Origin: Arthrobacter sp. UM1 | GTDB lineage: Bacteria; Actinomycetota; Actinomycetes; Actinomycetales; Micrococcaceae | Assembly (NCBI RefSeq): GCF_020483305.1 | Contig: NZ_JACWAB010000001.1 | Span: 1-64,000, forward strand | Direction: 5' to 3' | Length of the DNA stretch: 64,000 nucleotides | Shown: one piece after another, positions 27,549 through 36,956 of the stretch | How the letters are laid out: every line of letters begins with the position of its first letter | Numbering within the stretch: the stretch's first letter is position 1 | Made by a program: the position numbers and the translations under genes | The notes under the pieces: generated by a model | Told to the model about the DNA's origin: nothing | The model's input: only the letters and a program-made list of their open reading frames with translations | Databases searched by the model: none

Positions 27549-28697
27549 TCAGCCGCGCCGGCGGATGAGGTAGACGGCCGCCCCGAGGGCGACGACGGCG
27601 GCCGCCGTCAGGCCTGCGGGCGCCCAGGAGCGCAGCGCGTCCGAGGACTGAGTGGAGTGCGCCCCCGTATCGGCGCCGTTCACGCCGTACGAGGGATCGG
27701 ACGAGGGCTCCGCGGCTGGCTGAGAGGCGGCCGGCGCGGGAGCCGGTGCCGCAGAGGTGCTCGGTGCCGCAGGGGTGCTCGGTGCGGGTGCCGGGGGAAC
27801 GGGGGACGCCGGGGCAGACGAGCTCGGCGCCGTCGTCGGCGTCTGGCTCGGGGCAGCGGTCGGCGCGGTCGTCGGAGCGGCGGTCTCGGTCGGGGCTGTT
27901 GTCGGCGAGGTGGTCGGAGCGGCCGTGGGAGGGGCGCTCTGCGTCGGCGAGGCGGTGGCGGTGGGGTCCGGTGCCGGCACGGGATCCCCGAGGATCACCT
28001 GATAGATCGGCCCGCTGTTGGTGTTGTACTTGACGGGGTCGCAGCCCGGGATCTGCTCGGTGCGGAAGCTGATGTTGAGCGACGCCCAGGCGGAGGGACT
28101 CTGCGTGACGGGGATGGTGATCTCAGTCTGCGTGCTCTGAACGGCGCTGGCGTCGAGGAGCGTCGGGGTCTCCGAGGTGATGCGGACGCACTCAGGATCG
28201 AAGGTGTCGTAGCGTCCGGCGGTGAGCTGAGACACGGGGACCGTGGCCACAGCCTGCCCGGGCGTCCCTGTGTACTGAGGGCGGAGCACAATGACGTCGG
28301 AGGGCGGACTGTCGAGGTTCACGTAGCGGACGTTGACGACGGCGACGTTCGTGGCGTAGTTGACCGAGGCGTTGTTCGACTGCACGATCTGGTTGATGTC
28401 CGGGTAGTCGAGGAGCTCCTGAACCGAGTGGAACTCCAGGTACATGCCCGGGGCGGAGACGCTGACCGAGCCCAGATCCCCCTCTTGGATGGTGACGCCG
28501 GCGGAGGAGCCCATGATGTTGTCCAGGTTGAAGGCCTGGGAGATGTCGCCGGTGTACCAGGACAGAGGCCGGTGGGGCGTGCCCGTGGAGCCGGAGGAGG
28601 CCGTGGTGGGGTTCGCGCCGGCGAGGGTGGCGGTGACCGGAGCCGCCACGGCTGCGGCGAGGAGTCCTGCGGCCAGGATGCGCTTCTTGCTGTTCAT
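27549..28697 (-). CDS. Secreted surface protein 1 with non-canonical sorting signal
   Basis: This 382-residue protein has a signal peptide (MNSKKRILAAGLLAAAVAA...). A globular region of about 250 residues follows with CV and PGCD cysteines but no domain I can name. A Pro/Thr/Ala/Ser wall-spanning stalk then leads to YGVNGADTGAHS at residue 337, a hydrophobic helix (APAGLTAAAVVALGAAVYLI) and the tail RRRG. The overall C-terminus is that of a sortase substrate, but the motif is YGVNG instead of LPxTG. The start overlaps the glycosyltransferase stop by ATGA. It shares the motif with the second surface protein at 31.7-33.2 kb. Confidence 0.8.
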   Translation of the reverse strand: MNSKKRILAAGLLAAAVAAPVTATLAGANPTTASSGSTGTPHRPLSWYTGDISQAFNLDNIMGSSAGVTIQEGDLGSVSVSAPGMYLEFHSVQELLDYPDINQIVQSNNASVNYATNVAVVNVRYVNLDSPPSDVIVLRPQYTGTPGQAVATVPVSQLTAGRYDTFDPECVRITSETPTLLDASAVQSTQTEITIPVTQSPSAWASLNISFRTEQIPGCDPVKYNTNSGPIYQVILGDPVPAPDPTATASPTQSAPPTAAPTTSPTTAPTETAAPTTAPTAAPSQTPTTAPSSSAPASPVPPAPAPSTPAAPSTSAAPAPAPAASQPAAEPSSDPSYGVNGADTGAHSTQSSDALRSWAPAGLTAAAVVALGAAVYLIRRRG

Positions 28698-29638
28698 GGT
28701 GTTTCCCTGCTTTCTGGAGAGGGGAGGCAGAGCTCCAGGGTGGTCTCGGGGTGGATCTCGCACATGTACTCGAGGTAGCCGCGGACGGCGTTGTCCGCCT
28801 CGACGGCGTGATGGCGGCCGAAAGGAGGCTCGGCCCGCCACAGGTCCTTGTCGAAGAGCGCCCGCGAGGCGATGTCAAGGGGTCGCAGCGAGTCGTGGAA
28901 GACGGTGCAGGCGCGGAAGTCCTCGTAGGAGTCCATGAGCGTGGTGAACGCCATCCTGAGGTCGCTCGAGGCCGAGATGCCCTCGTCCCGGAGAACCAGG
29001 GGCGTGACCCACATGTCCGTCATCCAGGTCCGGCCCACGCTGCTCGTCTCGAGAACGGGCTGGGCGGCTTCGCAGGCGGCATAGACGCGGTCGAAGATCT
29101 CCGGCGCCGGGTCCTGGATCAGCCACTGCGCCCCGGGCGCGTTCCCCGCCGCCCGGTAGACGGAGAGCTCAGGAACCCTGCACGCCGTGGCCAGGTCCGA
29201 GAGGAGCTGCTGCTCGCCCATGAGGATGAAGGGCCTCAGGGAGGCATAGGACTCGGTCGGCGAGCCGAGCCAGCTCTCCGGTCCCAGCCGCTCCGCGCTG
29301 AAGCCGATCGGGCCGGTGAAGAGGAGGTCCGAGTCGCAGTAGTAGTAGACGCCGCGCTGCCGGGAGGGGTCTTCGCGGAGCCAGCGGGCGATGAGATACG
29401 GCCGGATGCTCGTGGGGTAGCGGGTGAGCGGGCGGTCGTCGTCGTACACCGTGAGCGAGAGGCCGAGGCGCTCGGCGAGCGCCCGGCACTCGGCCGCGTC
29501 CTCGGCGGCGGAGCGGGCGTCGGTGTAGGCGATCCAGCAGATCTCCTCGGCCACAGCGTGCTGGGACGCGCTGCGGGCGAGGATCTCGATCTCCCAGCGG
29601 TAGCCGGCGAGCGCGGGGCTGACGACGAGGATCTTCAC
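28694..29638 (-). CDS. GT-A fold glycosyltransferase-like protein
   Basis: The 314-residue protein starts at GTG 29638, in a GTGA overlap with the preceding GT2 gene (longer upstream frames run into that gene). It opens with VKILVVSPALAGYRWEIEI, and YYYCDSDLLFTGPI contains a DxD-type metal site, typical of GT-A enzymes that use nucleotide sugars. No closer family is recognised. No signal peptide or membrane segment, so it acts in the cytoplasm. Its position inside the surface-protein locus suggests it builds a glycan for surface decoration; acceptor and donor unknown. Confidence 0.65.
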   Translation of the reverse strand: MKILVVSPALAGYRWEIEILARSASQHAVAEEICWIAYTDARSAAEDAAECRALAERLGLSLTVYDDDRPLTRYPTSIRPYLIARWLREDPSRQRGVYYYCDSDLLFTGPIGFSAERLGPESWLGSPTESYASLRPFILMGEQQLLSDLATACRVPELSVYRAAGNAPGAQWLIQDPAPEIFDRVYAACEAAQPVLETSSVGRTWMTDMWVTPLVLRDEGISASSDLRMAFTTLMDSYEDFRACTVFHDSLRPLDIASRALFDKDLWRAEPPFGRHHAVEADNAVRGYLEYMCEIHPETTLELCLPSPESRETP

Positions 29639-30483
29639 GCGCGTCCTTCGTCCGGGGCGGGCGAGGAGGCCTGCGCGGCCTCGAGGCGGGCGCACATCGC
29701 GAGGAAGCGCTCGCGGTGGGCGCTCGGGACGCGGGAGGCGACGGCGGCGGTCAGGTCCCGCTCGAGGGGCGCCTGGCCGGCGACGGCGATGCTCCAGCGC
29801 TCGGCGGTCTTGCGGTCCAGCCCCTGCTCGGCGAAGACGCGGGCGGCGGTCTGCGCCTCGGAGGTCTGCGCCTCGGCCGACATGCTCGCCGACTCGGGGT
29901 TGACCTCGTAGCTCGTGAGGGCCTCTCCGAGGAGACCGAGCCGCGCTCCGGCGCGGGACATCTCCAGCCAGAGCGCCCAGTCCTCGGCTCCGTCCACGAG
30001 GGGGTAGCCCGCGCGGGGCAGGAGGGAGCGGCGGAGGAGGACGGACGGATGGGGGACGGGGTTGTGGAACCAGAGGAGGGCGCCCATGGTGGCGGGGTCG
30101 ATCTCCGGTGCGGCCCGACCGGGCAGGGCCTGCCCCTCGGGCGTGTGGAAGCGCAGGGCGGTCCCGCAGACGTCGAGCCGGTCCATGTGCTCGAGCTGCG
30201 CCGCGAGCCGGTGCGGGGCCATGACGTCTCCCGCATCGAGGCGCGCCGCGAACTCGCTGTCCGAGGCCTCGAGGCCCCGGTTGAGGCTGCCGGCCACGCC
30301 GAGGCGGCGCTCGTTCCGCAGCAGGGTCACGCCGGAGGGGGCCTCGACGGGCTCCGCGCTCGCGTCGTCGACGAGCACGGTCTCCACGTCCGCGAGCGTG
30401 CTCTCCCGGACGCTCTGGAGGGTGCGCGCAAGGACCTCGCGGGGGCGGTCCCGGACCGGGATGAGAACGGTGATCAGAGGCAT
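29635..30483 (-). CDS. Family 2 glycosyltransferase
   Basis: The 282-residue GT2 protein begins LITVLIPVRDRPREVLARTLQSV, has VLVDDASAE, then the DxD-like ARLDAGDVM. The late conserved blocks HPSVLLRRSLLP and EDWALWLEM match cytoplasmic GT2 enzymes of polysaccharide synthesis. It begins 4 bp after the arylsulfotransferase-like gene and overlaps the next gene by GTGA. Sugar specificity unknown. Confidence 0.88.
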   Translation of the reverse strand: MPLITVLIPVRDRPREVLARTLQSVRESTLADVETVLVDDASAEPVEAPSGVTLLRNERRLGVAGSLNRGLEASDSEFAARLDAGDVMAPHRLAAQLEHMDRLDVCGTALRFHTPEGQALPGRAAPEIDPATMGALLWFHNPVPHPSVLLRRSLLPRAGYPLVDGAEDWALWLEMSRAGARLGLLGEALTSYEVNPESASMSAEAQTSEAQTAARVFAEQGLDRKTAERWSIAVAGQAPLERDLTAAVASRVPSAHRERFLAMCARLEAAQASSPAPDEGRA

Positions 30484-30487
30484 GGCA

Positions 30488-31711
30488 TCACGCAGCGATC
30501 GCCCGGTACACGCCGAGGTCGGGGCTCTGGGCGCTGAGGCTGAGCTTCGGCGTGCCGTCCGGCGCGAAGACGGTGAACACCTCGGCGTGGCTGCGCCCGA
30601 GCCCCCAGCCGACGGCCACGAGCCCGTCCTCGAGCACCCGCGTGCTCCCGCCGAACCGGCTGACGCGCCCCGGAAGCGCGTAGGAGCGGACCTCGGTGCA
30701 GCGGCGGTTCTCCTCGTCGAGCGCGACGACGAGTCCGCGGCTCTGCTGCGCCCCGTTGTCGAAGAGGACGAGGGCGCCGTTCTGCACCCTCGCGTCGTGC
30801 TGGACGCGGAAGGAGGGAGCGCCGGCGAACTGGTTGCCCTTCCCGCCGAGGACCCAGAGCACCTGGCCGCTCGTCCGCGAGACCTTGATGACGGCGTTCG
30901 CGCTGCGGAGGCTGAGGATGAGGCCGCCGTCCTCGTGGAGGGCCAGGGAGTTCAGGTGCCAGGCGTCGTCGGCCCCCTCGATCCGCACGGCCTTCGGCGC
31001 GGCGAGTTCCAGGACCTCCGGGTGCTCGGTGCCGAGCCACTCGAAGACCACCCTCCCGTCCTTGACCTCCTGCACATACGGCGCCCACACGGGCCGTCCC
31101 CGCACACTGGTCTTGACGTAGTCCTGGAGGATCCAGTGCGAGCGGCTGAGCAGGACGATGTCATGCATCTCCGCGAGGAGCGACGGCCCGGGATGCCTCT
31201 GCGTGGGCGTCCGCCGGATCGTCGCGATCTCCTGGAGGCGCCCGTCGGCGAGGACGAACTCGCCGCGGCGGAAGGACTGGGGGTTGGGCGAGCCGTCGTC
31301 CACCTGGCGGAAGTACGTGCAGAGCCGCTGGCCGCCGATGTCCCAGGGCAGGAGGTTGGAGAGCTCAGCCGCGGCGCTCGCGGTGTGCGCCACGCGCGAG
31401 CCCGCACCGGTGAAGACGGCCGCGAAGGACGTCCCGGCCGGGCGAGGCGCTCCCGAGGGAGGGGACACCGCCGGCTGGAGCGGATAGAAGGAGGTGTAGA
31501 CCTTCCGGGAGCCCAGCACGGAGACGTCGCCCGTGGCCTTCAGCGAGGGGAGGGGGCTGGCGGGACGCGCGGCCGGGGAACTCGACGCCCCGCTGCGGCC
31601 CCGGCTTCCCCCAGCGCACGAGCTCAGTCCGGCCGCCATCGAGATCGCCGCGCCCGCGCTCGCGGCGCGCAGCGCCGTGCTCAGGGCACTGCGTCGGGAG
31701 ACGGCGGCCAT
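30488..31711 (-). CDS. Arylsulfotransferase (ASST)-like lipoprotein
   Basis: This 407-residue protein has a lipoprotein signal (SRRSALSTALRAASAGAAISMAAGLSSC, lipobox near LSSC). The rest is a beta-propeller-like repeat region with MHDIVLLSRSHWIL, DAWHLNSLALHEDGGLILSLRSANAVIKV and QVLWVLGGKGNQ, which are hallmarks of arylsulfotransferase/ASST family propellers. Family members transfer sulfate between phenolic compounds in the periplasm, but many actinobacterial homologues are uncharacterised. Being attached to the membrane's outer face, it would work with the two surface proteins of this locus. A strong AAGGAG precedes the start. Confidence 0.75.
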   Translation of the reverse strand: MAAVSRRSALSTALRAASAGAAISMAAGLSSCAGGSRGRSGASSSPAARPASPLPSLKATGDVSVLGSRKVYTSFYPLQPAVSPPSGAPRPAGTSFAAVFTGAGSRVAHTASAAAELSNLLPWDIGGQRLCTYFRQVDDGSPNPQSFRRGEFVLADGRLQEIATIRRTPTQRHPGPSLLAEMHDIVLLSRSHWILQDYVKTSVRGRPVWAPYVQEVKDGRVVFEWLGTEHPEVLELAAPKAVRIEGADDAWHLNSLALHEDGGLILSLRSANAVIKVSRTSGQVLWVLGGKGNQFAGAPSFRVQHDARVQNGALVLFDNGAQQSRGLVVALDEENRRCTEVRSYALPGRVSRFGGSTRVLEDGLVAVGWGLGRSHAEVFTVFAPDGTPKLSLSAQSPDLGVYRAIAA

Positions 31712-31741
31712 GCGGCTCCTTCGGGTCGGGGCGGGCAGGGG

Positions 31742-33220
31742 TCAGCTGTTGCGGCGGCGGAGGATGTAGGCGACGGCTCCGGCGGCGACGACGGCGGCCG
31801 CGGCTGCGAGGGCGCCGATCCAGGTGCGCTGGCGGGCCTCGGCCTGGGCCTGATCCTGGGCGTGGGCGCCCGTGTCGGCGCCGGTGACGCCGTAGGCCCC
31901 CGGGTCAGAGGACGGGGCCGTGCCCGTTCCGCTCGAGTCTGTGGTGCCGGTGCCGGTGGATCCGGTGCCGTTGGATCCGGTGCTGCTGGACCCGGGCGCG
32001 GGCGTCGTCGGCTGCGAGGCTGAGGGCGCTGGCGCCGTCGGGCTCGGCGAGGCCGCCGGCGTGCTCGGGGTCGGGGAGCCGGTGGGCGAGCCGCTCGGTG
32101 CGGGCGAGGTGGGGCTGGCGGTCGTCGTCGGGCTCGGGGCCGGGGACGGCGGGGTGGTGGCTCCGCCGGGGACGGTGATGGTGACGGTCGCCGTCGTGGT
32201 GTGGCCGTCGCGGGCGTCGGTGATGGTGTACGTGAAGGTGTCCGTGCCGGAGAAGCCGGTGTTCGGCGTGTAGGTGTAGGTGCCGTCGTTGTTGTAGGCC
32301 ACCGTGCCGTGGGCCGGGGCGGTGTTGGCCGTGATGGCGCCCTGGGCGGTCTGCCCGATGGTGTCGTTGTCGGTCGCCTTGACGGTGACGGGGGTGTTCT
32401 GGGGCGTGGTGGCGGCGTCGTCGGCGGCCAGGGAGGGCCGGTAGACGATGATGTTCTGCACGGCCTGCGCCTGGCAGCCGTGGATCATCGGGTCGACGAG
32501 TCTCCCGCCATCAGCGCATTCCTCGTAGACCCATCCGCTGGACCCCGGAGAGCTCGGATCGGGGCGCAGAACGGGCTGAAGCTGCTCCGTGGCCACCTCG
32601 GGCACGGACAGGTGGTACTTGGCTCCCCAGATGGCGGAGTCCTGGCCCTCGGGCAGGAGCTCGTTGAGCTGCGAGTAGTCCACTCGACGGCCGTCGGCGG
32701 AGACAGCCAGATGTCCAGGACCATCGCTGAAGTAGACGATGAGGTCGTCCACGGCGCCGGGCCTCTGGCAGATGACGTTCTGTGCGTACGACTCGTCACG
32801 GGCGTTGAGCCGGAGGCCGTTGAATGCCGTCACCTGGGACAGAGGGTCGAAGGTGCCGCTCGCGCTGCTGGCCAGCGAGACGTACTGGTCCGCCAGCTGG
32901 GCCACGGGGACGTGTCCCCCGCCTCCCCCGGCTGGGCCCACGGTTCCTGCCCACCGAGCCGCGTCCACGGGCGGGGCCGTGACCATGCCCTCGCCCACGA
33001 AGGCGCACACGCAGTCTTGGCTGCCTGTTTCGCCCTTGGGGTAGAAGACGGACGAGCCCGGGCCGTCAGCGGTGGCGCCGGTGGGCGCCGGGGCCGGGGC
33101 CGTCAGAGTCGCGGGAGCCGCCAGGGCCGAGGGTGCGGCAAGGGCGGCCACGCCCACGCTCAGGGAGGCGGCGGCGAGGACGGTGCGGGCCTGGGACAGG
33201 AGGCGGGGAGAGGGGGACAT
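31742..33220 (-). CDS. Secreted surface protein 2 with non-canonical sorting signal
   Basis: The 492-residue protein has a signal peptide ([25 protein letters not shown]). A cysteine-containing region of unknown fold follows ([40 protein letters not shown]). At about residues 260-350 is a bacterial Ig/cadherin-like (Big_17-type) domain with [18 protein letters not shown] and [12 protein letters not shown] Pro/Thr/Ser/Gly stalk ends at [12 protein letters not shown] (residue 443), followed by [19 protein letters not shown] and RRRNS. The start is 188 bp from the sortase-like gene and has its own promoter. Substrate-like, with adhesion or surface structure role inferred. Confidence 0.8.
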
Positions 33221-33287
33221 GCGGTCTCCGGGGGATGCGGCTGCGATGAGGGATGCCGGGTGCAGCGGAGGGAATCAGTTGAGATGA

Positions 33288-33317
33288 ATTCTATCCGTTT
33301 TTCTGTGATGCGGCCAA
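33288..33317 (-). promoter_or_regulatory. Promoter for surface protein 2
   Basis: On the minus strand TTGGCC (33317-33312) is followed, after 18 nt, by TAGAAT (33293-33288). The start codon at 33220 is about 60 nt downstream. It makes the substrate gene independent of the sortase gene. Confidence 0.55.
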
Positions 33318-33408
33318 CGTCCCATCCGGCCGCCGCCGCATTCGCCGGCGTCTTCGGGAGCCAAGGGGAGGAGGCGAGCGGGCCTCGGGGGCGCCGCCGG
33401 CTCGGCGC

Positions 33409-34122
33409 CTAGTCCGTCACCCGCTCGAAGTCCCAGGCGATCACGATGTTCTGCACCGGCTCCGCGCCGTTCTGGGAGGGCTGAAGACAGCCGACGGTGA
33501 AGAGGCGGCCCGCCTTGGGGGAGCGGCTCCACTCCTGGGAGAGGGCGGCGAGGGAGCCTGAGCCGGCTCGCCTCGGCGTCATGAACCCCGTGGCTCGGTA
33601 CACGAGCCAGCGGGTTCCGGAGGCCTTGGTCCGGACCCGCATCTCGTCCCCGCGGCGGAGGGCGAAGGACTGCGAGCGCCAGTCGTAGAGGCCGTCGAAG
33701 GCTGCGAAGCCCTCCTGGGAGGTGTGGCCCGCGATGAGCGACATGCCCGCTGCGTGCGATCCCGGGAGCGTCCAGCTGCTGCCCGCGCGGGTGTAGGGGC
33801 ATGCCTCGTCCACGGCGTCCAGCCGAGGCCAGATCGCGCCCTCCGCGTTGAGCGGGCAGGTCTCGTCCCGCACGACGACGCGGGCGTGCTCCCGCGTGGC
33901 CGGAGACGCCTCCAGACGGGGCCAGGCCAGCTCCAACGGAGCGCTCGAGGGGATGTCCCGCGAGACCGGGGTGAACGTGGCCGGCGGCGCTGTCGTCTTG
34001 GCAGCCCGGGCCGCGCCGGGAGAGCTCTCCGAGGCCGGGCGCGGGGTGAGCCAGTAGACGCCCCCGGCCGCGAGCGCGGCGAGGAGGAGTGTGATCGCCC
34101 AGAAGCGGACCGCTCGTGCCAT
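33409..34122 (-). CDS. Sortase-fold protein, class F/E-like, with atypical active site
   Basis: This 237-residue protein has an N-terminal membrane anchor (FWAITLLLAALAAGGVYWL). The sortase His is His133 in LIAGHTSQEGFAAFDGLYDW, followed by LRRGDEMRVRTKASGTRWLVYR. The Cys is in RLFTVGCLQP (Cys212). Canonical class F has LxTC with Gly-Gly next; here the Thr is followed by Val-Gly-Cys, two residues later. The usual Arg close to Asn-Val in YRDNVVV is absent: PVQNIVIAWDF instead, with only a distant Arg234. So catalytic status is uncertain. Two further cysteines (89 and 108) could form a disulfide. It precedes two matching-substrate genes. Confidence 0.7.
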   Translation of the reverse strand: MARAVRFWAITLLLAALAAGGVYWLTPRPASESSPGAARAAKTTAPPATFTPVSRDIPSSAPLELAWPRLEASPATREHARVVVRDETCPLNAEGAIWPRLDAVDEACPYTRAGSSWTLPGSHAAGMSLIAGHTSQEGFAAFDGLYDWRSQSFALRRGDEMRVRTKASGTRWLVYRATGFMTPRRAGSGSLAALSQEWSRSPKAGRLFTVGCLQPSQNGAEPVQNIVIAWDFERVTD

Positions 34123-34258: not shown

Positions 34259-34298
34259 GAGTCCGCGTCCCCGCGTCGAGACGAAAGCAGTGATCCTC

Positions 34299-35300
34299 AT
34301 GTCCCCGCTCCGGGCAAGCTCCCCGTCCGTCCTCTCGCGCCGCAGCGCCCTCTCCCTGTTCGGAGCGGGCGGTCTCGCGCTGGGCGTCGCCGGCTGCGGA
34401 GGCGGCTTCTCGGACGCGTCCGGCTCGGCCCAGGGCGGACGGCTCCCCGTCGTCGCCTCCACGGGCGTCTGGGCGGCGGTGGCCTCGGCCGTCGGGGGAG
34501 AGCGGGTGGACGCGAAGGCAGTCATCCCGGCCTCTCAGGACCCGCACTCCTTCGAGCCGACGGCCAAGGACCGGCTCGCGGTGAAGCGGGCGGAGGTCGT
34601 CATCGTCAACGGCGGGGGATACGACACGTTCATGGACGCGCTCGTCGCGGACTCGGGGAAGAAGGACACCCTGGTCAACGCCGTCACGGACTCGGGCCTG
34701 CCGGGCGCGGACGAGGCCTCGCACGCGGAGGAGCACGGCGAGGAAGACGGGCACAGCCACGCGCACGGTGAGTTCAACGAGCACGTCTGGTACAGCCTTC
34801 CGGTCCTGGGCCGCGTGGCCGACGCCGTCGCGGACGCGCTCGGGAAGAGGGACTCCGTGCACGCGGAGGAGTACACGAAGAACGCCGCGGCCTTCCGGGA
34901 GCGGCTCAGCTCGCTCGAGGCGCGGGTGAAGGACCTCCGCTCGGCCGCACGCGGCAAGAAGGCCATGCTGACCGAGCCCGTGCCGGGGTACCTGCTCGCG
35001 GACGCCGGGCTCAAGGACGCCACGGACGAGCGGATCCCGAAGGCCGTCGAGGACGGCTCGGACATCCCTCCCCGCGTGCTCGAGGCCGCGCGCCGCCAGC
35101 TCGAATCGGGCTCGGTGGCGCTCCTCGCCGTCAACGTGCAGACCTCCTCTTCGCAGACCAAGGCCCTCGAGGCGGCCGCCCGGAGCGCCCGGGTTCCGGT
35201 CCTCTCCTTCGGCGAGACGATGCCAGAGGGGCAGGAGGACCTCCTGGCCTGGATGTCCTCGAACGTCGACTCCCTGTCCAAGGCGCTCGGCCGTGGCTGA
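34299..35300 (+). CDS. znuA: Zinc ABC transporter substrate-binding lipoprotein
   Basis: This 333-residue solute-binding protein carries a lipoprotein signal (SRRSALSLFGAGGLALGVAGC). It has cluster A-I (ZnuA/AdcA) features: VASTGVWAAVASAVGGERVDAKAVI, QDPHSFEPTAKDRLAV with the metal-binding His, a His/Asp/Glu-rich acceptor loop (HAEEHGEEDGHSHAHGEFNEHVW) and a second His at LTEPVPGYLL region. The His loop is typical of zinc rather than manganese binding. I prefer the ATG at 34299; the GTG at 34290 is too near GAAAG. It overlaps the ATPase gene by 8 bp, and expression is likely zinc-repressed. Confidence 0.92.
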   Translation: MSPLRASSPSVLSRRSALSLFGAGGLALGVAGCGGGFSDASGSAQGGRLPVVASTGVWAAVASAVGGERVDAKAVIPASQDPHSFEPTAKDRLAVKRAEVVIVNGGGYDTFMDALVADSGKKDTLVNAVTDSGLPGADEASHAEEHGEEDGHSHAHGEFNEHVWYSLPVLGRVADAVADALGKRDSVHAEEYTKNAAAFRERLSSLEARVKDLRSAARGKKAMLTEPVPGYLLADAGLKDATDERIPKAVEDGSDIPPRVLEAARRQLESGSVALLAVNVQTSSSQTKALEAAARSARVPVLSFGETMPEGQEDLLAWMSSNVDSLSKALGRG

Positions 35301-36120
35301 GGCGCAGACCGCGCTCAGCCTCCGCGATGCCTCCCTCTCCTTCGGCGGCAGGACGCTGTGGGAGGGCCTCTCCGCCGATGTGAGACCCGGCGAGTTCATC
35401 GCGGTCCTCGGAGCCAACGGCTCCGGCAAGTCCACGCTCCTCAAGGCGATCCTGGGGCTCCAGCCGCTCAGCGGAGGCCGGATCGAGGTGGGCGGGGCGC
35501 CCGCGCGCAAGGGCAACAGGAAGGTCGGCTACATTCCTCAGCAACGCCTCTTCACCGCAGAGACTCCTCTGCGCGGCCGGGACCTCGTGGGCCTCGGGGT
35601 CGACGGCGCCCGCTGGGGCCTGCCCCTGCGCGGCGCGGCGCAGCGCCGCCGCGTGGACGAGCTGCTCGAGCACGTCGGCGCCGCCTCCGTGGCGGACCGG
35701 CCCATCGGGACGCTCTCCGGCGGCGAGCAGCAGCGGCTCCGCGCGGCCCAGGCCCTCGCGTCCTCGCCGGAGCTGCTCCTCTGCGACGAGCCGCTCCTCA
35801 GCCTCGACCTCGCCCACCAGCGGGGCGTCAGCGATCTCATCGGAGAGCAGGCCCGCCGCGGCACGGCCGTGCTGTTCGTGACCCACGAGATCAACCCGAT
35901 CATCCGGCACGTGGACCGCGTGCTCTACCTGGCCAACGGCGGCCACCGCATCGGCACGCCGGACGAGGTGCTGCGGACCGAGGTGCTCAGCTCGCTCTAC
36001 GGGAGCCGAGTTGACGTGGTCCGCGTGGGCGGGCGCATCATCGTGGCCGGGGGCCAGGACAGCGCCCACCACGTGCACGGGGAGGGGCCCGGACACGGCC
36101 CGGAGGAGGCGATCGCGTGA
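35293..36120 (+). CDS. znuC: Zinc ABC transporter ATP-binding protein
   Basis: The 275-residue ATPase has Walker A LGANGSGKSTLLKAILG, the Q-loop YIPQQR, the signature LSGGEQQRLRAAQAL, Walker B LLLCDEPLLSLDLAHQ and the H-loop VTHEINP. It carries an ending of His-rich sequence (AHHVHGEGPGH) not usual for ATPases, which may bind metal. The GTG start overlaps znuA, and the GTGA end overlaps znuB, so the three are one operon. Confidence 0.94.
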   Translation: MAEAQTALSLRDASLSFGGRTLWEGLSADVRPGEFIAVLGANGSGKSTLLKAILGLQPLSGGRIEVGGAPARKGNRKVGYIPQQRLFTAETPLRGRDLVGLGVDGARWGLPLRGAAQRRRVDELLEHVGAASVADRPIGTLSGGEQQRLRAAQALASSPELLLCDEPLLSLDLAHQRGVSDLIGEQARRGTAVLFVTHEINPIIRHVDRVLYLANGGHRIGTPDEVLRTEVLSSLYGSRVDVVRVGGRIIVAGGQDSAHHVHGEGPGHGPEEAIA

Positions 36121-36956
36121 GTCTGAACGACGTCATCTCCTTCCAGGACTACGGCGAGCTCCTCCAGATGCTCTACCCCTCGGTCATCGCCGGTGCGGTG
36201 CTCGGGGTCGTCGGCGGCGTCGTCGGCGTCTTCGTCATGGCCCGGAACCTCGCGTTCGCGGTGCACGGGATCGCCGAGCTCTCCTTCGCCGGAGCGGCGG
36301 CGGCGCTGCTCTTCGGCGGGAGCGTCGTGACGGGGTCCATCGCGGGCTCGGTCATCGCGGCCCTCGTCATCGGCTCGCTCGGGGTGAAGGCGCACGAGCG
36401 CAGCGCCGCGATCGGCGTCCTCATGCCGTTCGGCCTCGGCCTCGGCATCCTGTTCCTCTCGCTGTACCAGGGGCGCAGCGCCAACAAGTTCGGCCTGCTC
36501 ACGGGGCAGATCGTCTCCGTGGACGGCCCGCAGACCGTCACGATGGCGGTGGGCGGAGCCGCCGTCCTCGCGGCGCTCGCGCTCATGTGGAGACCGCTCA
36601 TGTTCGCCTCGGCGGACCCCGAGGTGGCCGAGGCCCGCGGTGTCCCCACGGGGGCGCTCTCGATCGCGTTCATGCTCGTCCTCGGCGTCACGGTGGCGCT
36701 GTCCATCCAGGTGGTCGGGGCGCTGCTCGTCCTCGCCCTCCTCGTCACGCCGGCGGCCGCAGCGGGCCTCGTGGCGAGCCGGCCTCGCGCCGTCGTCGGG
36801 CTCTCGGTGCTCTTCGCCGTGGTGTCGGTGTGCGGCGGCATCCTGCTCGCGCTCGGGTCCGTCGTGCCGATCAGCCCGTTCGTCACGACCATCTCGTTCG
36901 CGATCTACCTCGTCTGCCGCGTCATCGGCCGCCGCAGGGGGCGCGTCCGCCGCTGA
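36117..36956 (+). CDS. znuB: Zinc ABC transporter permease
   Basis: This 279-residue permease belongs to the ABC-3 (ZnuB/TroC) family. It has about eight membrane helices, starting LYPSVIAGAVLGVVGGVVGVFVMARNLAFAVHGIAELSFAGAAAALLFG, with the characteristic region GLVASRPRAVVGLSVLFAVVSVCGG. The GTG start overlaps znuC by GTGA. It ends 73 bp before the convergent zur gene. Confidence 0.94.
   Translation: MSLNDVISFQDYGELLQMLYPSVIAGAVLGVVGGVVGVFVMARNLAFAVHGIAELSFAGAAAALLFGGSVVTGSIAGSVIAALVIGSLGVKAHERSAAIGVLMPFGLGLGILFLSLYQGRSANKFGLLTGQIVSVDGPQTVTMAVGGAAVLAALALMWRPLMFASADPEVAEARGVPTGALSIAFMLVLGVTVALSIQVVGALLVLALLVTPAAAAGLVASRPRAVVGLSVLFAVVSVCGGILLALGSVVPISPFVTTISFAIYLVCRVIGRRRGRVRR

Follow-up and report, generated by a model that had tools for sequence, protein, structure and literature searches.

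A diverged class-F-like sortase gene linked to homologous GADTG tails in a candidate surface-anchoring operon of Arthrobacter sp. UM1

Within a 64,000-nt stretch of the genome of the high-GC actinobacterium Arthrobacter sp. UM1 (GCF_020483305.1, contig NZ_JACWAB010000001.1; here called the window), a minus-strand locus at 27549-34122 encodes a remote sortase-like protein and two secreted proteins that share a homologous C-terminal tail with the core GADTG. We consider it likely, with a probability of about 0.7, that this operon combines a diverged class-F-like sortase with dedicated substrates that are cleaved at GADTG and anchored to the wall. The locus looks like a lineage-specific, apparently strain- or species-restricted variant of the class F/GVDTG pairing and not like a new kind of signal.

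Layout of the locus

Transcription on the minus strand runs from the sortase-like gene to substrate 1 and then through an arylsulfotransferase-fold lipoprotein, a family 2 glycosyltransferase, and a protein without a match to substrate 2 (Table 1). From substrate 1 through substrate 2, the genes are almost contiguous and show two 4-bp start/stop overlaps: the GTG start of the ~314-aa protein overlaps the stop of the family 2 glycosyltransferase, and the ATG of substrate 2 at 28697 overlaps the preceding stop (ATGA). The genes from substrate 1 onward are therefore likely to form one operon. For substrate 2, this ATG is the most likely start, rather than the GTG at 28841. The sortase-like gene is separated from substrate 1 by 188 bp, which contain a promoter-like site.

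Table 1. Features of the GADTG locus in the window
Feature	Position	Strand	Characteristics
Sortase-like protein, 237 aa	33409-34122	minus	N-terminal membrane helix, His133 in AGHTSQ, Cys212 in TVGC
Substrate 1, 492 aa	31742-33220	minus	Signal peptide, Cys-containing N-terminal region, one Big_9 Ig-like domain, Pro/Ser/Thr stalk, sorting tail
GADTG core of substrate 1	31868-31882	minus	GVDTG_CTERM match starts at 31882
Lipoprotein-like arylsulfotransferase-fold protein, 407 aa	30488-31711	minus	PF14269 60 bits, PF05935 32 bits, lipobox-like SSCAG
Family 2 glycosyltransferase, 282 aa	29635-30483	minus	PF00535 63 bits
~314-aa protein, glycosyltransferase according to the sequence-only reading	28694-29638	minus	GTG start; no Pfam/NCBIfam match
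Substrate 2, 382 aa from ATG 28697	27549-28697	minus	Signal peptide, orphan N-terminal domain, Pro/Ala/Ser/Thr stalk, sorting tail
GADTG core of substrate 2, inside YGVNGADTGAH	27663-27677	minus	GVDTG_CTERM E 6e-5, match starts at 27677

An earlier, sequence-only reading of the window had described a membrane-anchored sortase-like protein with GHTSQ and a Cys in TVGC next to the substrates, together with an ASST-like lipoprotein and two linked glycosyltransferases. Both sortase motifs are present, and the domain matches and the lipobox-like sequence are consistent with the lipoprotein. As for the glycosyltransferases, the family 2 enzyme stands on its PF00535 match, and the ~314-aa protein found no counterpart in either model collection.

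In 395 genomes of the family, the head of substrate 1 found no homologue; a search of 396 genomes from the order turned up nothing convincing for the head of substrate 2. Two weak matches to the substrate 2 head were set aside, as by eye they resemble ribosomal protein S4 and an RNA methyltransferase. Divergent from the sortase gene, a zinc-type ABC uptake operon lies at 34290-36956, with ZnuA (184 bits) and then an ATPase-like and a permease-like frame. In C. diphtheriae, wall proteins are linked to znu genes (PMC12445094).

The sortase-like enzyme and the other sortases of the genome

Taken alone, the window sortase scored 14 bits against PF04203 (cutoff, 26.6 bits) and matched none of the NCBIfam sortase models, including those for class E (NF033747) and class F (NF033748; cutoff, 166 bits). 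Scanning the genome with NF033748 likewise gave no match at the locus, a named-genome scan with the protein itself returned no relatives, and PDB sequence searches yielded nothing useful. A single-sequence AlphaFold2 model (pLDDT 36) was unusable for the fold. Three proteins from other genera, at 26 to 27% identity, make up its detectable relatives. When the window sortase and these three homologues were compared with class F sortases, profile against profile, the match reached 97.8% (E = 9e-13), and one of the remote homologues matches the class F model directly (E = 2e-5), far under the cutoff. By its sequence, the window enzyme looks like a remote class-F-like protein.

The catalytic His and Cys occupy the positions conserved in the sortase superfamily, and an alignment shows His133, Cys212, and Asn225 to be invariant across the window sortase and its three remote homologues. 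With class F enzymes such as Cutibacterium acnes SrtF, the protein shares a membrane anchor, a similar length, the His and Cys, and an Asn in the last strand (N-[IVL]-[VI]-[VI]). It differs from them in having TVGC in place of [IV]TCGG, in its 27% identity to the nearest detected relatives, and in its failure to match the class F model alone. The TLxTC signature and the last-strand Arg are both absent: Gly, not Thr, precedes the Cys, Gln stands at the usual Arg position with no Arg at the usual β8 place, and FTVGC and VQN replace VTC and NRN. His-Cys-Arg has been described as universal in sortases (PMC13257024). In the class-F-type enzymes that we collected from the order, TCGG is followed by [YF]x[DH]N[VIL]VV and the last strand lacks a conserved Arg, so the missing Arg does not set the window enzyme apart from class F. 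On the same ground, we rejected the idea that this loss alone marks a dead enzyme. The window protein is predicted to be catalytically competent, against which the Gly before the Cys and the missing Arg count.

The three remote homologues, on which the link to class F depends, sit in loci without GADTG proteins, and this counts against the proposed pairing. At L095, L096, and L097, relatives of the window sortase follow immediately after PstB-like genes of phosphate-uptake-type loci; a few kilobases upstream, a secreted protein is encoded that ends in GWG, a helix, and Arg. This arrangement is possibly an uncharacterized sortase/PstS-type pairing.

We also surveyed the sorting signals around the known sortases of the genome. 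Two further sortases were detected, a canonical class E enzyme (226.9 bits; gene C4:7779-8534) beside LAYTG and a second class-F-like enzyme beside LLSTG, which is consistent with three separate enzyme/signal pairs in this genome. The class E gene faces a 1225-aa frame (L012, C4 4078-7752) that ends in LAYTG, a helix, and an Arg tail. The second class-F-like gene (locus L013, C9:198368-203194) lies directly behind a 1301-aa frame that ends in PTPLLLSTGHAGAA, a helix, and a basic tail. Counterparts of this second enzyme occur in both other genomes of the genus (one of them 82% complete), and neither of these genomes has the window sortase, relatives of substrate 1, or the GADTG tail. The joint absence of sortase and tail is a thin sign of their co-inheritance.

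With several sortases in the genome, the GADTG proteins may be anchored by one of the others, such as the class E enzyme, the window protein being a degenerate or differently used relative. Class E enzymes recognize LAxTG (PMC5148588), and GADTG keeps the AxTG of this signal, including the Ala in second position seen with Streptomyces SrtE1. The class E enzyme is also canonical, while the window enzyme has neither the Thr before the Cys nor the canonical Arg. We nevertheless regard this explanation as unlikely. The class E gene has a LAYTG neighbor of its own, all four GADTG proteins of the genome have Gly where LAxTG has Leu, and the GADTG/GVDTG tails of relatives adjoin class F genes. The second class-F-like enzyme fits no better, as it is present in the two other genomes of the genus, from which the GADTG tail is absent. 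It is rather improbable that the window enzyme belongs to a separate lineage of sortases beyond classes A to F, one with altered catalytic surroundings (Gly ahead of the Cys, no β8 Arg) that would need the longer YGVxGADTG signal and might use an unusual acceptor. We prefer to see it as a diverged class-F-like sortase that is probably the cognate enzyme of the linked substrates.

The shared tail and its register

Substrates 1 and 2 align over their last 54 residues only (56% identity; E = 9e-7 by BLASTP). The likeness of the two proteins is therefore homology confined to the C terminus, not chance, in agreement with the sequence-only reading, which had pointed to similar ends on two otherwise dissimilar secreted proteins. 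The front parts are unrelated, and both tails have the layout PSSDP-YGVxGADTGA-helix-RRR. A whole-genome scan recovered this tail in two additional proteins, paralogues of substrate 1 that are encoded on contig C14 directly behind another glycosyltransferase-like gene; glycosyltransferase genes thus adjoin both GADTG loci. In each of the four tail proteins, the order is PSSxP..YGVxGADTGA, helix, and RRR.

GADTG is invariant in the four tails, and the position following YGV holds Thr, Asn, or Ala. The alignment to the curated NCBIfam model GVDTG_CTERM (NF058571) begins at residue 389 of the queried substrate 2 translation, the Gly that opens GADTG. Both matches that the genome scan gave in the window likewise start at the codon for this Gly. 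The tails of relatives read MPxGG[AV]DTG, followed by a helix and an Arg tail. Together, the variable residue after YGV, the fixed GADTG, the start of the model match, and the tails of relatives identify GADTG as the pentapeptide. It is the predicted equivalent of LPxTG here, and cleavage presumably falls between its T and G. The scores against GVDTG_CTERM are all under the cutoff of 29 bits, at 28.2 bits (genome scan) or 23.2 bits (hmmscan) for substrate 2 and at 21.7, 19.7, and 12.0 bits for the other three tails. Both window substrates are secreted proteins with G[AV]DTG, a helix, and a basic tail at the C terminus.

This register departs from the sequence-only reading, which had aligned YGVTG with LPxTG and proposed that Tyr replaces Leu, Gly replaces Pro, and, in one protein, Asn replaces Thr. 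The model aligns at the G of GADTG, the fourth residue of YGVx varies while DTG is fixed, and with GADTG as the pentapeptide none of the three replacements exists. Neither is the motif of an undescribed type, as that reading had tentatively supposed, because NCBIfam already holds GVDTG_CTERM. Its proposal of a dedicated enzyme/substrate system finds support in the genomic context, since the other two genomes of the genus lack both sortase and tail, and its link to glycosyltransferases is supported by such genes at both GADTG loci; the shifted recognition signal attached to that proposal has to be given up.

Outside this genome, a tail profile run on the other 394 genomes of the family found nothing comparable to the four copies (best match beyond them, E = 4e-4). 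Among the weak matches (E of 4e-4 to 0.01), the part of the loci that was read contained generic helix tails, a few G[AV]DTG proteins, and YGV in none. The search for C-terminal YGVxGADTG in other bacteria that the earlier reading had proposed was negative: the exact coding pattern of this motif, run over ~85,000 genomes (a set that may omit the close relatives of the window), returned no sorting tail. Its 32 matches, each translated in frame, are spread across many unrelated phyla, none of them with a helix and a basic tail, and are therefore read as chance.

Since the helix and RRR tail alone would keep the proteins at the surface, the tail could be a membrane anchor processed by no sortase. 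This seems quite improbable in view of the invariance of GADTG in four proteins, the match to a curated sorting-signal model, and the adjoining sortase-like gene. That the pentapeptide YGV[TN]G itself is the cleavage motif is hardly credible: YGV is conserved in all four tail proteins, but where this motif would have its Thr the tails vary between Thr, Asn, and Ala, and both the curated model and the homologous MPxGG[AV]DTG tails put the motif at GADTG.

Pairing of GVDTG tails with class F sortases in relatives

GVDTG_CTERM and the class F sortase were both searched for in the same 59 relatives, and their positions were compared. GVDTG matches of at least 24 bits occurred in 13 genomes, all 13 of which have a class F sortase (at least 95 bits), compared with 24 of the 59 relatives overall (P = 6e-7 by a one-sided Fisher test, to be taken only as a guide as related genomes are not independent). 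A class F gene was located no more than 2 kb away for 23 of the 55 GVDTG matches, almost all of which stand 200 to 350 bp upstream of it on the same strand; among the others are many weak matches and additional paralogues. Across the order, GVDTG tails occur commonly, and the anchoring pair is widespread among the relatives. Two genomes show a marked expansion of the pair, with at least 6 GVDTG-tail and 8 class F matches in G006 and at least 15 and 10 in G036.

The window locus shares with these systems (NF058571 tails with NF033748 neighbors) the G[AV]DTG core, the hydrophobic helix, the Arg-rich tail, and a sortase gene close by. It differs in having YGVx, not MPxG, ahead of the core and in substrates that score under the model cutoff. 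Compared with the NF033748 partners, the window sortase precedes its substrates and is far more divergent. An open-access literature search found no paper combining "GVDTG" and "sortase," so G[AV]DTG is on record as a database model for which we found no published experiment. The physiological role of class F sortases is not established (PMC13251363), and the only class F signal cited is the LPxTG used by the C. acnes enzyme (PMC13257024).

For the diverged class-F-like sortase and its GADTG substrates, we propose the following sequence of events. After export by Sec, the C-terminal helix and RRR tail would keep the substrates in the membrane. The Cys of the sortase would attack the Thr-Gly bond of GADTG, and the protein would be passed to an acceptor in the cell wall, which is presumably lipid II. 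With its Pro/Ser/Thr stalk, to which the linked glycosyltransferases may add sugars, the protein would hold its head domain clear of the wall. The YGVx ahead of GADTG would be a lineage-specific extension that may add specificity. The window sortase would serve the two operon substrates and probably also the two distant ones.

From the short distance at which GVDTG tails precede class F genes, we predict that class F enzymes of the order use G[AV]DTG as a natural signal. The window locus would then be the most diverged example of the G[AV]DTG/class F pairing, offering a test of how far a sortase and its signal drift together.
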